A DNA stretch of 8,242 nt, from contig DCIF01000109.1 of the NCBI GenBank assembly GCA_002315795.1, forward strand, positions 1 to 8,242. The letters are read 5' to 3'. Source of the DNA: Bacteroidales bacterium UBA1733. GTDB lineage: Bacteria > Bacteroidota > Bacteroidia > Bacteroidales > UBA3663. Shown here one piece after another: positions 1-8,242 of this stretch (position 1 is its first letter; each line of letters starts with the position of its first letter). The position numbers were made by a program, and so were the translations under genes. The notes beneath the pieces are model-generated. The model saw only the letters and a program-made list of their open reading frames with translations, searched no databases and was not told the DNA's origin.

Positions 1-573
1 GGCTTCCAGGAGCTGCCGCAGCTGGAGGCAGACTACGGCAAGGTAGGTATGCAGAAGATCATCACTACCGTAGGTAACGTGGTCTCTGGCTCAGCCCGTA
101 GCAAGGAAACGCTCGAATGGCTTAGCAACGATATCTTCGGTAAGGTGGTACAGCTGAAGAAGGGTGTCACCATCGACCGTGACCGTACCAGCATCAACCT
201 CAATGAGAATATGGACAATCTCGTTCCTGCTTCCAAGATCAGTGACCTGCCTACGGGTTGGATATGTGGTCAGACCGCACGTGATTTCGTGCAGACAAAG
301 GTAGGCCATAATGGTAACATGAATATCCAGGAGGCAGAGGAGTTCCAGACTACGAAGTTCTTCTGCAAGACCAACTTCGATATGAAGGCCATCAAGACCG
401 AGGAGGAGAACTACAGGGAGTTGCCAAAGTTCTATCAGTTCCCTTCCAAGGAGGCTAAGGAGCGTATCCTCTACACCAATTTCATACAAGTCAACAAGGA
501 CATAAAGGATATGATCAATGATGTCTTCGGGCGCAACAAGCAGCAGCCAGAGACACCCAAGAAACAACCATAA
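1..573 (+). CDS. mobC: Type IV coupling protein MobC (VirD4/TraG family), C-terminal part
   Basis: The reading frame is open from the first base, so the N-terminal part, including any Walker ATPase motifs, lies outside the window; 190 residues are visible. Seen: an IITTVGNVVSGSA segment, a run with RDRTSINLNENMD, then LVPASKISDLPTGWICGQTA (about residues 74-93), a KTEEENYRELPKFY stretch and a charged KQQPETPKKQP tail. From family knowledge, this order (GNVISGQ-like segment, PASRI/L-S-x-GEFVG-like segment, then a paired E-E-x-Y-x-x-IP and helical tail) is that of the C-terminal half of Bacteroidetes conjugation protein MobC, the membrane ATPase that passes the relaxase-DNA complex to the mating channel. 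Inference: the window begins inside a conjugative or mobilizable element. The gene is last in its unit, because a terminator follows 22 bp after the stop. Family membership is fairly sure; the exact name is less so. Confidence 0.82.
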   Translation, partial: GFQELPQLEADYGKVGMQKIITTVGNVVSGSARSKETLEWLSNDIFGKVVQLKKGVTIDRDRTSINLNENMDNLVPASKISDLPTGWICGQTARDFVQTKVGHNGNMNIQEAEEFQTTKFFCKTNFDMKAIKTEEENYRELPKFYQFPSKEAKERILYTNFIQVNKDIKDMINDVFGRNKQQPETPKKQP

Positions 574-595
574 ACCTTGACTTTCTTTTTTGCCG

Positions 596-635
596 TCCGG
601 CCTGTTGCTCGTGAGAGTCGCAGGTCGGATTTTTT
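596..635 (+). terminator. Intrinsic terminator after mobC
   Basis: Arms at 596-609 and 616-629 pair over 14 positions, with one T-C mismatch and three G-U wobbles, around the 6-base loop CGTGAG (610-615). The pairing starts with TCCGGCCTG against CAGGTCGGA, and six T residues (630-635) follow directly. This is a classic rho-independent layout and should separate the transfer genes from the downstream cargo operon. Confidence 0.85.
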
Positions 636-729
636 ATGTCCATACGGTTCGATAAAGTGCGAATTATCCAAGAGGGCAAGTTACAAAAGAGCTGTCTCGT
701 TGTTAAAAATCTATATAATCGCAAATGAC

Positions 730-748
730 TTCCAATATAAAATTGGAA
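730..748. repeat. 7-bp perfect inverted repeat over the -33 box, possible operator
   Basis: TTCCAAT (730-736) and ATTGGAA (742-748) are perfect inverted arms separated by the 5-base spacer ATAAA. The right arm contains the TTG of the proposed -33 element, so a dimeric regulator bound here would compete with sigma factor. The repeat is seen directly; the operator role is inferred. No regulator gene is encoded in the window. Confidence 0.5.
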
Positions 749-773
749 ATATCGACTGAAAAGATTATCTTTG
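743..773 (+). promoter_or_regulatory. Bacteroidetes-type promoter for the cargo operon
   Basis: TATCTTTG at 766-773 fits the TAnnTTTG -7 consensus of the Bacteroidetes primary sigma factor. A TTG at 743-745 sits 20 bases upstream, the normal spacing for the -33 box. Transcription would start near 780, leaving only about a dozen untranslated bases before the ATG at 793. The surrounding DNA is AT-rich and lies just after a terminator, as expected for an operon head. Confidence 0.75.
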
Positions 774-792
774 CGCGCTAATATTGTTTTTT

Positions 793-1305
793 ATGACCCA
801 GTTCGTATCAGATGAGGAGCACTATGAAATGGTGCTCGACAAGATGCTAAAGGCGCAGCATGTCCTTTGGATCGGTACAGCCGACATCAAGGATCTGTAT
901 GTGAAGAAGGGTAACGGTTCCCAGCCGTTGCTCGGTGCGCTGTCTGATCTGCTGAAGAAGGGAGTAGAAATACGTCTGATCCATGCCAAGGAGCCTGGTC
1001 CTAATTTCCGTGAGGACTTTGACAAGTATCCCATCCTTGCTGAGAGTCTGGAAAGGGTGCTCTGCAACAGGGTACATTTCAAGATCATCGTCATTGACTG
1101 CGAATGGGTCTATGTCGGCTCTGCGAACCTCACCGGTGCTGGCATGGGTATGAAGTCACCCCTCAAACGCAACTTCGAGGCAGGCATCTTCACCGATGAG
1201 CCGCATCTGGTAGATGGCGCTATGGAGGAGTTCGACCGAATTTGGCGAGGTGATGAATGCAAGAAATGCGGACGTAAGGATTTCTGTATTGACAGGATCA
1301 AATAA
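793..1305 (+). CDS. Phospholipase D-like protein with one HKD motif and a C-terminal Cys cluster
   Basis: This is a 170-residue protein. The HxKxxxxD catalytic motif is at H95, K97, D102 (VHFKIIVID), followed by the conserved GSANLTGAG (109-117), the normal layout of a PLD/Nuc active-site half. Only one HKD copy is present, so by family rule it would have to dimerise to form a complete site. The C-terminus has C156, C159 and C165 in DECKKCGRKDFC, a possible zinc or iron-sulfur site. There is no signal peptide or membrane segment, so it should be cytoplasmic. PLD-fold proteins cleave phosphodiesters in lipid or nucleic acid; a single short copy resembles the Nuc-type nucleases, but the substrate cannot be told. 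I chose ATG 793 over an in-frame TTG at 784, because ATG follows the promoter at a sensible distance. It heads the operon; the next start is 10 bp downstream. Confidence 0.88.
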   Translation: MTQFVSDEEHYEMVLDKMLKAQHVLWIGTADIKDLYVKKGNGSQPLLGALSDLLKKGVEIRLIHAKEPGPNFREDFDKYPILAESLERVLCNRVHFKIIVIDCEWVYVGSANLTGAGMGMKSPLKRNFEAGIFTDEPHLVDGAMEEFDRIWRGDECKKCGRKDFCIDRIK

Positions 1306-1315
1306 ACAGGCAAAT

Positions 1316-1996
1316 ATGAAAGTCGAGACATTCGTTTGTAACTATCTCAACGAGAACTGCTACGTTGTCAGCTTTGACAATGGAGAGGGTTTCATCGTGG
1401 ATTGCGGAGCCATCAAGAAGGTGGAGCGCAAGGCCATCGAGGACTATGTCAAGGCTAATGGCATAACGCTGAAGGCGTGTCTCAATACCCACATGCACTA
1501 TGACCATGCCTTTGGATTACCTTTCGTCAAGAAGAAGTACGGACTCGTTCCGCAGTGTAGTCCGAAGGAGAAGGGTAACTATGAGCGCAAGGAGTGGTGG
1601 GTACACATGCTGAGGACAGTAGCCACTCTGACACAGGGAAGACCCCTCTTTGAGTTCATGCCTGATCCAGACTATTCTCTTACGGAAGGAACCAAGCTTA
1701 TGATCGGAGGAACGGAGATCAGGGTCATCGAGACTCCTGGTCATTCTATTGGAGGACTCTGTTTCTATCTTCCAAAAGAGAAAGTCCTATTCACTGGAGA
1801 TACGATATTCTATGACACTATCGGTAATACGAGGGATAAGGATGCCAGCATGGATGACATGGAAAAGTCCATCGGCAAGATCTTCCAGACGGTTCCGAAG
1901 AATGTCACCTTCTATCCTGGTCATGGTGAGGGAACTACCCTCGGCGGTTTCGTAGAGAATTACCGAAAGAGAGTTGAACGTGCTAATTCTGAATGA
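1316..1996 (+). CDS. Metallo-beta-lactamase-fold hydrolase, glyoxalase II-like
   Basis: This 226-residue protein carries the full MBL metal set: H59-x-H61-x-D63-H64 in THMHYDHAFG, H143 in TPGHSIGG, D162 in FTGDTIF and H203 in YPGHGEGT. This layout is typical of the small single-domain glyoxalase II-like branch, whose members hydrolyse thioesters such as S-lactoylglutathione or related thiol conjugates, using two metal ions. An insert at about residues 80-120 (rich in K, E, W and R) between the second and third motifs may shape substrate choice. The frame is open back to 1214, but that would overlap the PLD gene by 92 bp, and family homology starts with MKVETFVCNYLNENCYVV, so ATG 1316 is preferred. 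The stop overlaps the next start in ATGA at 1993. No signal peptide. The specific substrate is unknown. Confidence 0.9.
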   Translation: MKVETFVCNYLNENCYVVSFDNGEGFIVDCGAIKKVERKAIEDYVKANGITLKACLNTHMHYDHAFGLPFVKKKYGLVPQCSPKEKGNYERKEWWVHMLRTVATLTQGRPLFEFMPDPDYSLTEGTKLMIGGTEIRVIETPGHSIGGLCFYLPKEKVLFTGDTIFYDTIGNTRDKDASMDDMEKSIGKIFQTVPKNVTFYPGHGEGTTLGGFVENYRKRVERANSE

Positions 1997-2133
1997 TCGT
2001 GTCCAAGTGTATTGAATGCTTCTTCTGCCGTGACAGGCAGGAGAATGAAGAGACTATCAAACGCTGTTCTGTCACAGGACGCAAGCTTACTGATGAATCT
2101 GAGGCTTGCAGCAATATAATGAAAAAATCATAG
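1993..2133 (+). CDS. Small cysteine-rich protein, 46 aa, probable metal binder
   Basis: This short frame begins with an ATG that overlaps the MBL stop codon (ATGA, 1993-1996) and ends with TAG one base before the LysE-type start, so it exactly fills the space between two real genes. The product has five cysteines: C6, C9 and C12 in KCIECFFC, then C25 (KRCSVTG) and C39 (SEACSN). The CxxCxxC-x12-C-x13-C spacing suggests binding of zinc or an iron-sulfur cluster, or a thiol-redox role. The rest is polar and charged, with no membrane segment. Its codons match the neighbours. I do not recognise a family. Evidence for being real is positional (overlap, exact fit) plus the cysteine pattern; without it the space between genes 1996 and 2135 would be an unexplained 138-bp gap in an otherwise tight operon. 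Confidence 0.75.
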   Translation: MIVSKCIECFFCRDRQENEETIKRCSVTGRKLTDESEACSNIMKKS

Positions 2134-2134
2134 G

Positions 2135-2719
2135 ATGCCCATAACATTACTACCATCATTGCTATTCGCCATTCTGGTTGTCGGCTATACGCCAGGCCCT
2201 GCTAACCTCTATTCGTTGGCATGTTGTCTGAAGTATGGCAGAAGGAAAGCCCTGAAGATGTGGAGAGGACTGCTTACAGGCTTCTCCATAGCCGTCGTTA
2301 TCATGGCTCTTCTTACCCATATCCTTGGCGAAGTCATGGGAGAGTATGTTGTGTATCTGAAATATCTTGGTGCGGCGTATATCCTCTGGCTTGCGTGGAA
2401 GATGTGGCGTGATTCTGGCCAGACAGATACAGAAGCCAAGGACTGTACCTTTGTCTCTGGCATGATGGTACAGCTTACCAATGCCAAGATGCTGCTCTTT
2501 GACCTGACAGCCTTCTCGGTATATGTCCTCCCATATAGCAATCAGCTGACAGATCTACTGGTAGTTGCAGCCTTATTGCTTATTGCAGGCCCAGGAGCAA
2601 ACCTCGCATGGTTGTATGCTGGAGCCTATCTGAGAAGGTTCTTCAGCAAATACAGAAAACAGGTCGATATAGTCATGTCCTTGCTGTTGGCAGGATGTGC
2701 CCTGTATATTGTATTATGA
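2135..2719 (+). CDS. LysE/RhtB-family transporter
   Basis: This is a 194-residue, very hydrophobic protein close to the usual LysE/RhtB length of about 200. Seen: the N-terminal signature YTPGPANLYSLA (18-29) after a first membrane helix (about 5-27), the second conserved segment FVSGMMVQLTNAKMLLF (106-122), and about six membrane helices (roughly 5-27, 44-64, 73-92, 112-132, 138-162, 177-194). By family, it exports amino acids or similar small polar metabolites across the inner membrane using the ion gradient. LysE members usually have NPK in the second motif where this has NAK, a small deviation. Start ATG 2135 is one base after the small protein's stop, and the stop overlaps the next gene in ATGA (2716-2719). 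Specificity cannot be read from sequence. In this operon it may export a product of the neighbouring hydrolase or reductase (inference). Confidence 0.88.
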   Translation: MPITLLPSLLFAILVVGYTPGPANLYSLACCLKYGRRKALKMWRGLLTGFSIAVVIMALLTHILGEVMGEYVVYLKYLGAAYILWLAWKMWRDSGQTDTEAKDCTFVSGMMVQLTNAKMLLFDLTAFSVYVLPYSNQLTDLLVVAALLLIAGPGANLAWLYAGAYLRRFFSKYRKQVDIVMSLLLAGCALYIVL

Positions 2720-3522
2720 TAAACCACACCCCCAAAAAAATATCAATGGATAGTAACGAAAGATTCGTCCTTGCTACTGAGGATGCGACATACGATCAGG
2801 TACTTAATTTCAGGGAGTACATGTACAAGTATCTGACGATCATGGATTCCAGTGGACATCATATAGACCTAGATCTGGTGAGGGCTAATGAGAAGTCTGC
2901 ACTCTATATCATGATCATGGGATCGAAGGTTGCTCATTACATGCATGACAATGATACACCAATGCCACAGAAGGATGAGCATTATGAGATGTTCTTTGAA
3001 TCCGTTCAGGACAGCTTGCCTGAGGATGTGAAGGCTTTCTCAGACGATCATTATGATGCAGCAAAGATTATCTTTGTGACAGGTATGGTTATGTTCAACA
3101 GTTCCCTGCCAGAGGAGCAAATCAAAGAGAAGGATAGGGATCCTGCATTTGAGATACTTGATAAGATCATGGAGCTGAGGGAGTTCGACCGTGATGCCGA
3201 GCATGTACTGATGGAGGTGTGCATCGAAACCTACTTCAAGGATAAGGAAGCGCACGATTATGTCAAGGCACATCTGCCTGCTGCCTATGTTATCATGGAG
3301 AAGGGCATGACATGCTGGAAACATGACATCGGGGACAAGTGTGAAGAGAAGTTCCGGGATGAGAAAGAGATCAGAAACCTTTTCTTCAAGGGGATCATGT
3401 TCGATGAGTTCATGCAAAAGAATGAGATCATTGACCATGACAGGGAAATGGCCTGTGACCTGTTCATGCTTGGTGCCTTCCTGGAGTATAACCTCGAAAA
3501 TGACAACAATAAACTGAAATAA
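2716..3522 (+). CDS. Unrecognised acidic, mostly helical protein
   Basis: I do not recognise this family. From ATG 2716 it is 268 residues; this start overlaps the LysE stop (ATGA). A second in-frame ATG at 2746 gives 258 residues and an N-terminus MDSNERFVLATEDATYD that looks more like a folded start, and the intervening HTPKKIS stretch is low in structure, so either could be used. The frame is open back to 2608, but that would run over the transporter. The protein is rich in D, E, K and M and looks all alpha, with amphipathic helices. Cysteines are few. It lacks a signal peptide and clear membrane helices. Composition and codon use match the neighbours, so it appears to belong to the operon; the reductase begins 9 bp after its stop. 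Confidence 0.85.
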   Translation: MINHTPKKISMDSNERFVLATEDATYDQVLNFREYMYKYLTIMDSSGHHIDLDLVRANEKSALYIMIMGSKVAHYMHDNDTPMPQKDEHYEMFFESVQDSLPEDVKAFSDDHYDAAKIIFVTGMVMFNSSLPEEQIKEKDRDPAFEILDKIMELREFDRDAEHVLMEVCIETYFKDKEAHDYVKAHLPAAYVIMEKGMTCWKHDIGDKCEEKFRDEKEIRNLFFKGIMFDEFMQKNEIIDHDREMACDLFMLGAFLEYNLENDNNKLK

Positions 3523-3531
3523 GATACAGCA

Positions 3532-4146
3532 ATGAAAGTATTACTCATCAACGGCAGCCCACGTCATAAGGGCAACACCAACGTCGCACTCGAAGAGATT
3601 GCCAAGCAGTTGGCCAAGCACGATATTGACAGTGAGATCCTTTGGATCGGCAACAAGCCCGTTCGTGGCTGTATTGCTTGTGGCAAATGTGAGAACAACC
3701 GCTGCAACTTCAATGACGATATCGTGAATACGGTCATTGAGAAGATGGAGCAGTGCGATGGTCTGGTCATCGGATCACCAGTCTATTACGGACAGCCAGC
3801 CGGTCAGGTATGCTGTCTTCAGCAGCGAATGATGTATGCTGGAAGCAGTGTGTTTGCCAATAAGCCAGCAACAGGTGTATGTGTCTGCCGTCGTGGTGGT
3901 GCTACCGCAGCCTTCCAGACACTCAACATGCCGTTCCAGATGACTAACATGCCTGTAGTCACCTCTCAGTACTGGAATATCTTGTATGGTTGTGGCGAGG
4001 GAGAGACCTGTCTTGACGTGGAAGGTCTTCAGACGATGCGAACTCTGGCTAACAACATGGCGTGGATACTAAAGAAACTGAATGGCATACCGACCTCTGA
4101 TCAGCCAGAGCGTGAGGATTGGATGCCAATGAACTTCATCCGATAA
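3532..4146 (+). CDS. NAD(P)H-dependent FMN reductase / flavodoxin-fold protein with Isf-like Cys motif
   Basis: This is a 204-residue flavodoxin-like protein. The N-terminal strand and phosphate loop MKVLLINGSPRHKGNTN (1-17) binds the FMN phosphate, and GSPVYYG (81-87) forms the second flavin loop. Between them lies C47-x2-C50-x2-C53-x4-C58 (GCIACGKCENNRC), the compact cysteine pattern of the iron-sulfur flavoprotein (Isf) group, which can hold a 4Fe-4S cluster beside FMN. Many related NAD(P)H:FMN reductases share this motif, so cluster binding is likely but not proven. Further cysteines occur at 94-95, 117, 119, 154 and 160. The role would be cytoplasmic two-electron reduction of flavin, quinone or other small electrophiles, or electron transfer. 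It is 9 bp after the previous gene. Its stop is the last point of about 50% GC DNA before the AT-rich insert. Confidence 0.9.
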   Translation: MKVLLINGSPRHKGNTNVALEEIAKQLAKHDIDSEILWIGNKPVRGCIACGKCENNRCNFNDDIVNTVIEKMEQCDGLVIGSPVYYGQPAGQVCCLQQRMMYAGSSVFANKPATGVCVCRRGGATAAFQTLNMPFQMTNMPVVTSQYWNILYGCGEGETCLDVEGLQTMRTLANNMAWILKKLNGIPTSDQPEREDWMPMNFIR

Positions 4147-4162
4147 AAGGCTTTATTTCTTT

Positions 4163-5005
4163 ATGAATATATATTTCATAGATCCCAAATACATCAAAGA
4201 TGTCGCATGGATGCCTCTTTTATCATATCTAAAGGTAAAAGATTCGCTAAGTTTCATTCCTGATAATGAGTTGCCAAATTCATTGAAAGATATAATATAT
4301 CCTTCTAGATTTGAAAACCAAGGACCAAGAGGAATTGATAATTGTTCCTTTTGGTTAAGAGAACATTTAGAAAATTGTGTCAGATTGAAAATCAAAGATT
4401 ATCCAGATGGTAATGTTCCTAAGGATTCTTTGAAGAATTATAGTACAAACTCTCCACAACATAATATTGAAAATTTAGGCGTTCAAAATGTACTCATTTT
4501 AACCCCACTTTGCTCTACTTATGATAGTGAAGGCATTGTTCAAGCTCCTTTAATGAGCAAGTATATAGATGTATTTCCAGGTTTAATGAGGTATTGCTTA
4601 AATATTTTGCATAAGAAATATGGTCATAATGAATATGACAAACAGTGTTCTGCTATATTATTCGATGAATTCATGAGTCAGTCTTTTCTCTATTTTCCGA
4701 AGCGAAGAGAATGGCTCCCAATTAGGTTTGCCCCAAATGTGTTAAAAGGTGTACATGATATTGACCCCAGTAATTTTCAATTGACAGTATCAGACAATGA
4801 GAAGGAAGAATATACATCCTTGATAACTGATTTTGGACAGCAGAAATTATCGGAGTTCTTAAATGAAGTGAAAGAAGCAATACAAGAATATCGTGAAAGT
4901 ATAACTTATGAAGATTCTTGGCATGATTGGCAAAGAGAAGTTGATCAGATGAATAGAGATTTTTGGAATGAATGTGGTGAATCAAGTGTAAATTGCGACT
5001 TTTGA
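4163..5005 (+). CDS. AT-rich orphan gene, unknown function, probably acquired
   Basis: I do not recognise this 280-residue protein. Its DNA differs from both sides: a hand count over 4201-4980 gives 259 G+C of 780 (33%), against roughly 50% in the flanking genes, and arginine is mostly AGA while neighbours use CGT and AGG as well. Seen: N-terminal MNIYFIDPKYIKDVAWMPLL, a central hydrophobic strand NVLILTPLCS, aromatic-rich segments (FLYFPKRREWLPIRF), and a charged C-terminal helix from about residue 220 (SEFLNEVKEAIQEYRES). There is no signal peptide and there are no membrane helices. The N-terminus is plausible because ATG 4163 follows the previous stop by 16 bp and no other in-frame start exists nearer. 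An effector, immunity or defence role is possible for such isolated AT-rich genes, but nothing in the sequence shows it. Confidence 0.85.
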   Translation: MNIYFIDPKYIKDVAWMPLLSYLKVKDSLSFIPDNELPNSLKDIIYPSRFENQGPRGIDNCSFWLREHLENCVRLKIKDYPDGNVPKDSLKNYSTNSPQHNIENLGVQNVLILTPLCSTYDSEGIVQAPLMSKYIDVFPGLMRYCLNILHKKYGHNEYDKQCSAILFDEFMSQSFLYFPKRREWLPIRFAPNVLKGVHDIDPSNFQLTVSDNEKEEYTSLITDFGQQKLSEFLNEVKEAIQEYRESITYEDSWHDWQREVDQMNRDFWNECGESSVNCDF

Positions 5006-5144
5006 TTCTTATTCTATCAATTGAATCTTTCTCTTCACAGAAGCTGATTTTTCTGATTCGCCTGTTCTTTTATAGAACACCCTTATAATATATAATCTGA
5101 TGATTACAAATAGATACTTCAAGTTAATAACAAGTTATTGATCT
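5006..5144. other. AT-rich intergenic spacer, probable insertion border, with a small hairpin
   Basis: This 139-bp spacer shares the low GC of the orphan gene. It contains TGTTCT (5063-5068) and AGAACA (5074-5079), a 6-bp inverted repeat with loop TTTAT, but no T tract follows, so it is a weak terminator candidate at best. No TAnnTTTG promoter is visible, although some promoter may exist for the downstream genes. I see no tRNA, target duplication or att-like repeat. Confidence 0.5.
5126..5139. repeat. Short inverted repeat upstream of the YjbQ-family gene
   Basis: AATAAC (5126-5131) and GTTATT (5134-5139) form perfect 6-bp arms around AA, ending five bases before the ATG at 5145. It could be an operator or an element affecting translation initiation. 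Such AT-only short palindromes occur by chance in AT-rich DNA, so confidence is low. Confidence 0.3.
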
Positions 5145-5558
5145 ATGATTCAACAGGTAGAATTTTCGCTTAGAGAGAAGCGTCGCGGCTTCCATCTGGT
5201 GACTGGAGAGATCCTTCAGCACCTGCCACAGCCATTGCCCGAGACAGGATTGCTGAACCTCTTTGTCAAGCATACGAGCTGTTCACTGAGCATCAATGAG
5301 AACGCTGATCCTGATGTCCGCACGGATATGGAACAGATTTTCAACCATCTGGTCAAGGAAAGAGAACCTTACTATGACCACGTGCTCGAGGGTGCCGACG
5401 ATATGCCAGCTCATGCCAAGAGTACGATGATTGGTGTTAGCCTTAATATCCCAATCACAAGAGGCAGATTGAACCTCGGCATCTGGCAGGGAATCTATCT
5501 GTGTGAGCACAGAGACTACGGAGGTTCCAGAACGATTGTAGCAACCATTTACTCATAA
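5145..5558 (+). CDS. yjbQ: YjbQ / UPF0047 family protein (secondary thiamine-phosphate synthase-like)
   Basis: This is a 137-residue protein at the family's normal length. Seen: HTSCSLSINENADPDVRTDME at 43-63, the signature of the family, H79 in YYDHV, H90 in MPAHAKSTMIG and the C-terminal LGIWQGIYLCEHRD (111-124). H43, H79 and H90 are the conserved histidines thought to form a metal or substrate site. Members are small, trimeric, cytoplasmic proteins; E. coli YjbQ has been associated with a low thiamine-phosphate synthase activity, and the true reaction is not settled. It returns to the ~50% GC composition after the AT-rich stretch. The DUF169 gene starts 8 bp after its stop, so they are likely co-transcribed. 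The ATG at 5145 fits the family's N-terminus and no alternative lies nearby. Confidence 0.93.
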   Translation: MIQQVEFSLREKRRGFHLVTGEILQHLPQPLPETGLLNLFVKHTSCSLSINENADPDVRTDMEQIFNHLVKEREPYYDHVLEGADDMPAHAKSTMIGVSLNIPITRGRLNLGIWQGIYLCEHRDYGGSRTIVATIYS

Positions 5559-5566
5559 TTACGACT

Positions 5567-6283
5567 ATGACCCCACAGGAATTTGTAAAGGCATTTGCAG
5601 AGGCATTCGGTTCAGATACCCAGTTGCCTATTGCTTTCGGCTATAGTGATGAACCTTTGACCGAACCCAAGGAAGGACTTCGTTGCCTGATGGGTTTGTT
5701 CCCCAAGGTCAGGAAAGGCGATGCGGTGACGCTTGCCGACAAGTTCATTTCCTGTGGCGGCGGTATGCTCTATATGGGTACTGGCGAGTTGCAGGATAGA
5801 ATCCCCAACTTTGTTTCGAACATAGAGCACTATCAGCAGACACCTCAGATGGTACGCGACTATGTGGAGGGCTTGCATATCTTTCCAGCACCGAAGAAGT
5901 ATATCAACTTTCAAAGAGTAGATAACTTGACTGGGTGGGATGGCATCGAAGGGCTGATCTTCTTCGCTACTCCTGATGTGCTGAGCGGATTATGTGCTTG
6001 GGCATTCTTCGATGACAACTCTGAGTCGGCAGTCATTACCCGTTTCTCCTCTGGTTGTGCCTCATTGATCACGATGGCAGTGACAGAGAACCGCAAGGAA
6101 TATGGTCACAGCTGCTTCCTTGGAGGCTTCGACCCATCGGCCAGAATCATGATGCCTGCAGATGAAATGACCTTTGTCATTCCTTCTGTTCGTCTGCCTA
6201 AGATGCTCTCGACGATGAAGGATACCTGCCTGTTCGATACTCCAGCATGGAGCAAGATCAAGCAAAGAATTGAAAACAAGTAA
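5567..6283 (+). CDS. DUF169 family protein
   Basis: This 238-residue protein resembles the DUF169 family (PF02596), which has no established function. Seen: an N-terminal helix, PIAFGYSDEP (21-30), then the DUF169-type features CGGGMLYMGTG (63-73), LSGLCAWAFFDD (139-150), SSGCASL (161-167), and LGGFDPSARIMMPADEMTFVIPS (about 185-207). The paired cysteine motifs CGGG and SGC may form a cofactor or metal site (inference). No membrane segments or signal peptide are visible. The stop precedes the next gene by 10 bp. It is adjacent to a YjbQ protein, with only 8 bp between them, which suggests linked function, but I cannot name the pathway. Identity to DUF169 is from pattern memory, not a search. 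Confidence 0.78.
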   Translation: MTPQEFVKAFAEAFGSDTQLPIAFGYSDEPLTEPKEGLRCLMGLFPKVRKGDAVTLADKFISCGGGMLYMGTGELQDRIPNFVSNIEHYQQTPQMVRDYVEGLHIFPAPKKYINFQRVDNLTGWDGIEGLIFFATPDVLSGLCAWAFFDDNSESAVITRFSSGCASLITMAVTENRKEYGHSCFLGGFDPSARIMMPADEMTFVIPSVRLPKMLSTMKDTCLFDTPAWSKIKQRIENK

Positions 6284-6293
6284 AAATAGCAAT

Positions 6294-7787
6294 ATGTCAA
6301 AAAAGAAACAATCCAAACCACAGCAGCAGTCTATCTCTCCTGTAAGGTTCCTGAAGGAGAGAGTCAGACAGGTGCCGGTATATAAATGCTACCTCAGTCA
6401 TGACTTCGAGAAATCTACCGAAGGCACGGTGATGGTAGTGCGCAAGCATACAGGTGACAAATATACCTGCGGTCTTTACCTCGTAGATAAGTACTGTCTG
6501 GGTGTAAAGGATGCGTCGTACCACCTTCGCATGGATGAGCAGGAGTTTGATGAGTTCCTGGATCTCTTCGAGGAAGACTTCAACCCACATGTCGTTACCT
6601 ACGAGGAGGCTCATAACTGGGTATGGGGAGCAGTCGGCTTTGCCGAGGATGCAGGTATTGCACCTTGCAAGGAGTTCGAGCTGGCTCAGTATGTGCTGGC
6701 AGAGGATGATGACGAAGTTGAGCTGATAGAGTATGACTTCGGTGATGCCGATGGCAAGCATTGTCTGTTGGCTAATGACAGACTGGAGGCAAGCACCTAT
6801 CTGCCACTTATGCGCAAGAACCTTGGGGATGAGTTCACCTTCTGCCTTGGTCCGAATGACAGCATCCATGGCGCAGAGGATTGGGACTATGAGAAGAATG
6901 TTCCGCTTTTTGATGACTCTGATCTCTCAGGTTGGGATGTGGAAGAGGATGATGAGGTAGAGTACCACCAGGTGCATCCTGACTATCCGACGGAACTGAA
7001 TCTGAAGAATACGGATATAGCAGAAGTTCTCTCATGCAGTGATCCAAAGCTCCTGACAGCGGAAGATGTAGATGCTTTCATTTCCCGTGAAGGTATCAAG
7101 GAAGACCTTGAACAGTATATCCTGTATCATATCGGCCAGTCGAATGACGTTGCTTACGATAAGGATGAGACCATCTATGACAATGATGACAGGTATGACT
7201 GCAACCTGATGCAGGCTGTCAGACTGCTGTCAGAGGTAGGTGATGAGCAGAGTCTTGACGTTGTGCTGGAGGTATTACGTCAGGATTTGGGCTGTCTTGA
7301 CTATCATTTCGGCGATTACCTGGTTGAGTCCATTGTGCCTGCTGTAGTGAAGCTCGGGGCTGGTCATCTGGATAAGCTGATGTCGTATGCCAAGGAGCCA
7401 GGTCTGTATGACCTTGCCCATTATATCGCTCTGGAGGCAGTAGGTGCTATTTGGGAGTATAACCCTGAATTAAGGGAGGAAGCAAAGAAATGGTTCATCG
7501 AGGTTCTTACCTTTGCCAAGGAGAAACTTGATGCTGATGACAACAGCTATTTCTCTCATACCCTCATTGGTTTTGCCCTCTGCCAATGTATGAATATGGC
7601 AGATGAGGATCTTCTTATGATCATCAAGGAACTCTATGAGAAGGACTATGTGAACCAGAATATATGTGGAACATACGTCAATGTAGCACAGAGTATCCTG
7701 ACAGGTCAGAAATCTTTGGATCCTATTGAATTGGACATTCATGAGTGGTTCAAGTGGTACTATTCGAATTTCGGAACTGAAACGAAG
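6294..7787 (+). CDS. Large acidic helical-repeat protein, DUF1186-like C-terminal half
   Basis: This is a 498-residue cytoplasmic protein in two parts. Residues about 20-200 form an alpha/beta region with VPVYKCYLSHDFEKS, the strand-rich VMVVRKHTGDKYTCGLYLVDKYCLGVKD (46-73) and the helix EEAHNWVWGAVGFAEDAG (104-121), then an aspartate/glutamate-rich linker (about 195-240: DWDYE, DDSDLSGWDVEEDDEVE). Residues about 270-470 are paired helices such as LMQAVRLLSEVGDEQSLDVVLEVL and VPAVVKLGAGHLDKLMSYA, typical of HEAT/ARM-like or DUF1186 repeats. Such repeats act as scaffolds for protein or nucleic acid binding. The frame reaches back to a TTG at 6270 inside the preceding gene; ATG 6294, 10 bp after the DUF169 stop, with a MSKKKQSKPQQQ tail, is preferred. 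Its stop TGA (7788-7790) overlaps the RNase H-like start in GTGA. No enzyme motif is visible; function is unknown. Confidence 0.83.
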
Positions 7788-8221
7788 TGATACAGGACAG
7801 TACGACATACTACGTCTGGGTCGGAGGCTCTTGTGACTATGGTCATAAGGAGAGAGCCAGTGGTTGGGCCTACATCATTGAGCATGATGGTAGGGAGGTA
7901 AGCCGTGCCGTGGATGCTGATCATGACACTACTGAGTTCAGGATGATACTCACGGCTATGATCAGGGTGATGGAAGAACTGCCTGAAGGTTCAGACATTG
8001 TTTTCCTGACCAATGTGGCATACATCCAGAACTTTGATAAGACCCCTACAGCCAAGTCTGCCAATGCTGACCTTGTCACGGGGTGCCTCGAACAGAAGAC
8101 GCGACACCATTCTGTAGCAGTCAAGATCGTTCCGTATCACAAATACCCTTTGCTGATTGAGACTCATGACATGGCTCATGAAGCGATGATCAAACATAAA
8201 CTAACACTAAAACAAATTTAG
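7787..8221 (+). CDS. RNase HI-fold protein lacking catalytic carboxylates (probable pseudoenzyme)
   Basis: This 144-residue protein has the RNase HI fold order. Strand 1 YVWVGGSCDYGHKERASGWAY aligns with the TDGSC...GGYGAIL region, TTEFRMILTAMIRVMEEL (48-65) aligns with TTNNRMELMAAIVALEAL, TNVAYIQN (75-82) aligns with TDSQYVRQ, and HKYPLLIETHDMAHEA (118-133) aligns with the C-terminal His/Asp region. By this alignment the E. coli catalytic residues D10, E48 and D70 become G13, I54 and N76; H118 and D128 keep the H124 and D134 positions with the same spacing of 10. Two-metal nuclease activity is therefore unlikely, and nucleic-acid or protein binding is more plausible. The start is GTG 7787: an in-frame TGA lies at 7778-7780 and no ATG precedes strand 1. 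It overlaps the previous stop in GTGA, so translation is probably coupled. The fold assignment is by manual alignment. Confidence 0.8.
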   Translation: MIQDSTTYYVWVGGSCDYGHKERASGWAYIIEHDGREVSRAVDADHDTTEFRMILTAMIRVMEELPEGSDIVFLTNVAYIQNFDKTPTAKSANADLVTGCLEQKTRHHSVAVKIVPYHKYPLLIETHDMAHEAMIKHKLTLKQI

Positions 8222-8224
8222 CCA

Positions 8225-8242
8225 ATGGTAAAACCAACAATC
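8225..8242 (+). CDS. Start of a further operon gene, truncated by window end
   Basis: An ATG at 8225, three bases after the RNase H-like stop, opens a frame reading MVKPTI to the end of the window. The tight spacing matches the rest of the operon, so a real gene probably starts here, but six residues allow no identification. Confidence 0.5.

Follow-up and report, generated by a model that had tools for sequence, protein, structure and literature searches.

Can a small protein with the fold of ribonuclease HI (RNase HI) still act as an RNase H when the catalytic acids are missing from its active site, or has the fold been put to another use? The question is raised by a gene in an 8,242-nucleotide stretch of DNA from Bacteroidales bacterium UBA1733 (assembly GCA_002315795.1, contig DCIF01000109.1, positions 1 to 8,242), referred to here as the window. 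The gene occupies 7787..8221 on the forward (+) strand and encodes 144 amino acids (aa) without the catalytic carboxylates of RNase HI, starting at GTG, with ATG at all relatives' loci among those listed. The interpretation favoured here, with a probability of roughly 0.6, is that the product is a non-cleaving, repurposed RNase HI-fold protein in which a rebuilt pocket would bind a different ligand.

Fold and catalytic residues

Structure prediction, proposed as a check in an initial annotation of the window, returned an RNase HI fold for the 144-aa protein, with structural matches extending over approximately 129-133 residues. To place the protein among its relatives, 322 aligned family rows were used, 321 of them distinct, comprising 296 proteins from protein searches, the window protein and 25 intact genome loci, with identities to the query of 40-98%. 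The proteins used per search were 120 of 943, 120 of 147 and 114 of 114; 13 of 38 genome loci were left out (in-frame inserts in six, truncation or frameshift in seven), and loci L039 and L046-L056, found later, are likewise outside the 322 rows. RNase H-like homology was recovered by hhalign against canonical RNases HI with 97.8% probability and an E value of 8e-13, in one comparison whose partners were five canonical RNases HI from other genomes, themselves recovered by the family's own profile (best E 1.9e-5). The window protein scores 24.5 bits against PF00075, below the gathering score of 25.8.

The catalytic carboxylates of the E. coli enzyme are taken here to be D10, E48, D70 and D134. 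In the profile-profile alignment and the joint MAFFT alignments, D10, E48 and D70 fall at G13, I54 and N76, as the initial hand alignment had placed them. The G13 codon (7823..7825, +) lies within residues 11-23 (W-V-G-G-S-C-D-Y-G-H-K-E-R; 7817..7855, +), which cover strand 1 and the following loop; I54 closes residues 48-54 (T-T-E-F-R-M-I; 7928..7948, +) at the start of helix A, where E50-F51 take the place of the Asn pair N44/N45; and the N76 codon is at 8012..8014 (+). In the same joint alignment all 29 canonical rows carry D at both the D10 and D70 columns, whereas columns 13 and 54 are free of acids throughout the family (0/322), and D occurs at column 76 in a single row, P0292, a 101-aa protein whose tail diverges from the family past approximately residue 80. 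Among family rows without a gap, G13 is present in 317/322, N76 in 315/319 and H127 in 310/317, and the states at columns 13, 54, 76 and 127 are GMNH in 203, GINH in 94 and GLNH in 5 of the 315 rows lettered at all four. As judged from these alignments, in which D/E/D occurs in no family row, G, M/I/L and N at the first three columns are a family trait and not the oddity of a single sequence.

The same analysis extends the replacement to the fourth carboxylate. The initial annotation had counted three, taking H118 and D128 as the H124/D134 pair. In the joint alignment H127 (8165..8167, +) stands beneath the C-terminal catalytic Asp of the five canonical RNases HI and of a further RNase HI considered below (L061), a statement that excludes the Bacteroidota-type host RNases, whose third catalytic Asp is unaligned there. 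Structural alignment, which gives the first and last residue pairs and from whose ends the D134 column was derived, pairs model residue 138 with E. coli residue 145 and, carried back along the C-terminal helix, puts D134 on H127; for a Fibrobacter relative (model 127 with E. coli 147) D134 falls on the matching His. D128 was therefore rejected as the counterpart of D134, being one residue late and at an unconserved column (D 215, E 60, Q 19, others and 6 gaps in 322 rows). H118 (8138..8140, +) remains the likely counterpart of H124, with an ambiguity of one residue because the loop preceding H127 is one residue shorter than in canonical RNase HI. With H127 rather than D128 at the D134 column, four carboxylates, and not three, are replaced in the family.

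A superfamily survey describes the strand-1 Asp as common to all RNase H-like enzymes and incomplete sites as frequently inactive (PMC3985635); at the strand-1 position the window protein has G13, and none of the 322 rows has an acidic residue. Two-metal hydrolysis is not expected with Gly in the place of D10 and Asn in that of D70, and two-metal catalysis is presumably absent. With the metal-binding carboxylates exchanged for G, M/I/L, N and H, all nearly invariant, the RNA of RNA:DNA hybrids would probably be left uncut.

Conservation, selection and origin of the family

The columns around the old active site are the most conserved of the protein. The top 14 of 119 scored columns (18, 50, 51, 16, 23, 53, 73, 48, 79, 17, 15, 11, 14 and 76) all lie inside four old-active-site segments that together cover 38/119 columns (hypergeometric 1.6e-8, to be read as a guide only, as the segments were chosen by the authors from motif positions). 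Of the top 20 columns 17 are in the segments, a count reached by 0/118 rotations of the segments (best rotation 15). Near-invariant polar residues include D17 (319), H20 (311), E22 (315) and E50 (322 of 322 rows), together with H118 (309/314) and H127 (310/317); T49 is found in 299/322 rows and the GSC turn is retained. Codons 13, 76 and 127 show synonymous variation over 26 genes (GGN, AAT/AAC and CAT/CAC), and omega, the ratio of nonsynonymous to synonymous substitution rates, has a median of 0.127 and a maximum of 0.34 over the 65/325 pairs with usable synonymous divergence (dS), the other 260/325 having been set aside for saturated or low dS. For the window gene, omega is 0.11-0.15 (three pairs). 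The family gene is under purifying selection, and the earlier view of a disabled site on a preserved fold, as opposed to a decaying gene, gains support from the predicted fold, omega and family-wide conservation, but with broken copies at some loci, as weighed below.

The family protein also appears, by sequence comparison, to be distinct from the cell's own RNase H. Another PF00075 match (E <= 0.001) was present in 22/22 genomes checked from the 37 carriers, 20 of them above the cut-off. Among the host RNase H-like genes read, D fills both the D10 and the D70 column in 24/24, and E fills the E48 column in 19/24; the five Fibrobacter host rows with I rather than E at column 54 were read as local misalignment.

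A tree built from 56 family and 29 canonical rows places the family on one side of a 100/100 branch with a long stem, which suggests a single loss of the acids on the stem followed by fixation. The sister group is uncertain, because L061 joins the family with weak support (93/75) where long branches meet. L061 is an additional, apparently intact RNase HI encoded by Prevotella sp. P2-180, which also carries family locus L001. It reads GSCDN and lacks the basic handle, as in the family, yet retains D, E, D and D, and is possibly near the family's ancestor. The family was found undescribed in the open-licence PubMed Central (PMC) literature searched, a scope that makes this weak evidence of absence.

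Candidate function and alternative explanations

If the protein is a non-cleaving, repurposed one, its putative pocket would comprise W11, C16, D17, Y18, H20, E22, R23, E50, F51, N76, H118, K119 and H127. C16 and E50 should touch, since their positions correspond to Cys13-Asn44 of the E. coli enzyme, a pair described as an engineered disulfide (2RN2; PMC4403899). Its ligand might be a small molecule, a nucleotide, or a nucleic-acid end that is damaged or modified. Given the lack of a conserved operon partner, the protein would be expected to work by itself or together with some housekeeping protein, in an accessory stress or repair function. A fuller scenario is tentative: among the most ancient of nuclease folds, this one may have been converted a single time into a novel type of stand-alone protein, its two-metal site giving way to a Cys/His/Glu/Asn/Arg pocket for recognition, and perhaps chemical processing, of a damaged nucleic-acid end or a small molecule, and may then have spread in Bacteroidales and Fibrobacter, in places beside repair or detoxification genes.

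A possible, if doubtful, alternative is that the protein is still an enzyme, its site shifted by a few angstroms and built from D17, H20, E22, E50, H118 and H127, with another metal or none and another substrate. These residues are polar and near-invariant, as in an active site, E50 lies four residues, or one helical turn, ahead of the E48 column, and relocated acids occur in the superfamily (YqgF and Tex; PMC3985635), although the same survey describes the nuclease activity of YqgF/Tex as uncorroborated at its date. A rather improbable alternative, which takes up the nucleic-acid sensor or decoy suggested in the initial annotation, is an inactive RNase H that has kept its affinity for RNA:DNA hybrids and serves as a sensor, decoy or shield. 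The predicted fold, T49 and the GSC turn are retained, and some relatives lie near genes matching DNA-alkylation-repair families, but neither hybrid-binding feature of the RNase HI kind is present. The Asn pair N44/N45, presumably N105/N106 of Bacillus halodurans RNase HI, is replaced by E50-F51 in 322/322 rows, and the basic handle is missing as an alignment gap. The family is also mildly acidic, with a median isoelectric point of 6.6 and net charge of -1 (317 family rows; query -5) against 8.6 and +2 for the 29 canonical rows, an approximate comparison as 24/29 of the latter were read stop to stop. Five additional changes to the substrate-binding region, N105A N106A included, left little or no activity in a B. 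halodurans RNase HI-zinc-finger fusion that had been weakened beforehand (PMC3526281). With the Asn pair replaced, the handle missing and the net charge lower, a plain hybrid decoy is disfavoured, and the sensor or decoy idea is weakened to one weak option.

Several observations weigh against a non-cleaving, repurposed RNase HI. From sequence alone the RNase H link is weak: just 9/44 family rows match PF00075 even at E <= 1, and the top PDB match of the family profile is a gelsolin (E 0.007), with RNases H at E values of at least 0.056. At the same loose limit L1R_F9L (best E 3.7e-4) and MPK1_gelsolin_C each match 19 of the 44 rows; these and the gelsolin chain were dismissed as weak by sequence and absent among the fold matches shown. 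H127 by itself is no proof of lost activity, since active relatives may have His at the third catalytic position (PMC3985635), and the D, E and H residues of the pocket could form a new catalytic site. The gene is also dispensable in places, because 7/38 genome loci hold truncated or frameshifted copies and only 11/301 sampled genomes of the family-rank group matched, three of them with partial or split copies. This patchiness would suit a weakly constrained relict that travels with accessory operons, which is nonetheless the least probable explanation given the low median omega and the near-invariant columns with varied codons. Scarcely more credible is an active RNase H whose acids were overlooked by misalignment; other acids (D17, E50 and D70) are present, but the GSC turn and the strand-4 motif anchor the D10 and D70 columns, D stands at both in every canonical row and at the first in no family row, and the structural end offsets match the sequence alignment.

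Distribution and genomic neighbourhood

The genome-contig scan, seeded with exact query peptides and hence biased toward close relatives, recovered its 38 loci from Prevotellaceae or other Bacteroidales (33) and from Fibrobacter (five); Segatella baroniae B14 (locus L012) is one of the carriers. In a phylum-rank sample of 395 genomes the family was found in the centre genome only, the other five matches being canonical RNases HI. Among mobile-element records, two unannotated phage records and one viral contig gave family matches, and a plasmid search gave no match to the family gene.

Immediately upstream in the window, an open reading frame (ORF) at 6270..7790 (+; first ATG 6294), with a weak DUF1186 match (E 0.016), overlaps the RNase HI-fold gene through its TGA and the GTG start (GTGA). 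The initial annotation had treated tight coupling to this helical-repeat protein as a clue to function; it is not a conserved partner, being matched in 3/37 genomes with the family gene or a fragment, and there on other contigs, because the match positions exceed the end of the family gene's contig. Downstream, an apparent ATG-started ORF begins 3 bases past the stop of the RNase HI-fold gene (8225-8242) and leaves the window, so the operon may continue past 8221. Neighbour genes vary between loci, and no conserved operon partner was found among the family loci compared. Of 165 listed ORFs 85 were scanned, with matches to acetyltransferase PF00583 (7), DNA-alkylation repair PF08713 (3), AlkZ-related (2) and AbiEii (3) families and two each to aldo/keto reductase, short-chain dehydrogenase, nitroreductase, flavin reductase and glyoxalase; these counts are non-independent, as related genomes have some neighbours in common and some ORFs are the same gene in related genomes. 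The neighbourhoods are in the style of accessory stress or repair operons, without a fixed partnership. For anti-phage defence, the family protein matched 0 PADLOC-DB families at E <= 0.1, a weak test in a library restricted to described systems.

Small genes recur in shuffled order around the family gene at seven loci (L001, L002, L007, L008, L010, L013 and L025), with stop and start codons touching in several, like exchangeable cassettes. At L035, L036, L037 and L038 the copies are cut off after GSCDYGHKE by element-like sequence, and at L035, L036 and L038 the truncated copy is followed by a gene starting M(A/T)EDNRTYIAIDLKSFFASVE, which we take to resemble a Y-family polymerase. Elsewhere in the window, a 280-aa ORF without a confident Pfam match (4163-5005) lies in a region of 35% guanine-cytosine content (4001-5000) against approximately 46-48% around it, and is likely a recent arrival. 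A small phospholipase D-family protein (784-1305) matches the defence models MkoB (E 4.8e-9) and DrmC (E 2.4e-8).

In-frame insertions in family genes

In-frame inserts of approximately 25 codons were observed at two fixed sites in homologous family genes, site A after query residue 32 (L003, L013, L025 and L034) and site B after residue 93 (L010, L011, L013 and L026). By eye, the insert DNA is palindromic and related between the two sites. A 17-base core of the insert, with one mismatch allowed, was matched in 6/13 genomes searched, with 18 matches in genome G712, where the reversed pattern gave none, and with the reversed control equally frequent in G696; a second piece of 16 bases was matched in 3/15 genomes. 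The inserts presumably resemble Rickettsia palindromic elements, no mention of which with Prevotella was found in the open-licence PMC literature searched. Two more distant members (P0190 and P0214) carry different, similar-looking inserts, again at site B, as if this site had been hit repeatedly.

Comparison with known RNase H-like proteins

Of the six source-named members listed, two are named ribonuclease H (P0234 and P0280, the acids being absent in both) and four hypothetical protein; similarity-based annotation would credit such cells with an RNase H, which these proteins probably are not. Should the pocket prove to be a new site of binding or catalysis, the family would show a metal nuclease fold turned to another task, and the near-invariant residues make the question of function directly testable on a 144-aa protein.

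With RNase HI (PF00075; E. coli RnhA and Chlorobium tepidum 3h08) the family has in common the predicted fold, the GSC turn, the TT-x-x-RM motif and the order of strands and helices, and differs in the four replaced catalytic carboxylates, the change of the Asn pair to Glu-Phe, the missing basic handle and a slightly longer loop between strands 1 and 2. The best PHROG match of the window protein is a phage-type RNase H, PHROG 531 (E 7.9e-8, residues 6-83). Bacillus subtilis YpdQ, a small RNase HI homologue reported to be inactive, is similar by description alone. Prp8, Tex, YqgF and the reverse transcriptase connection domain are presented in the superfamily survey as RNase H-like folds in which the catalytic set is incomplete, relocated or lost, Prp8 keeping the strand-1 acids and YqgF all three carboxylates (PMC3985635). 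The family studied here keeps none, and in contrast to those four it is small, stand-alone and RNase HI-like.
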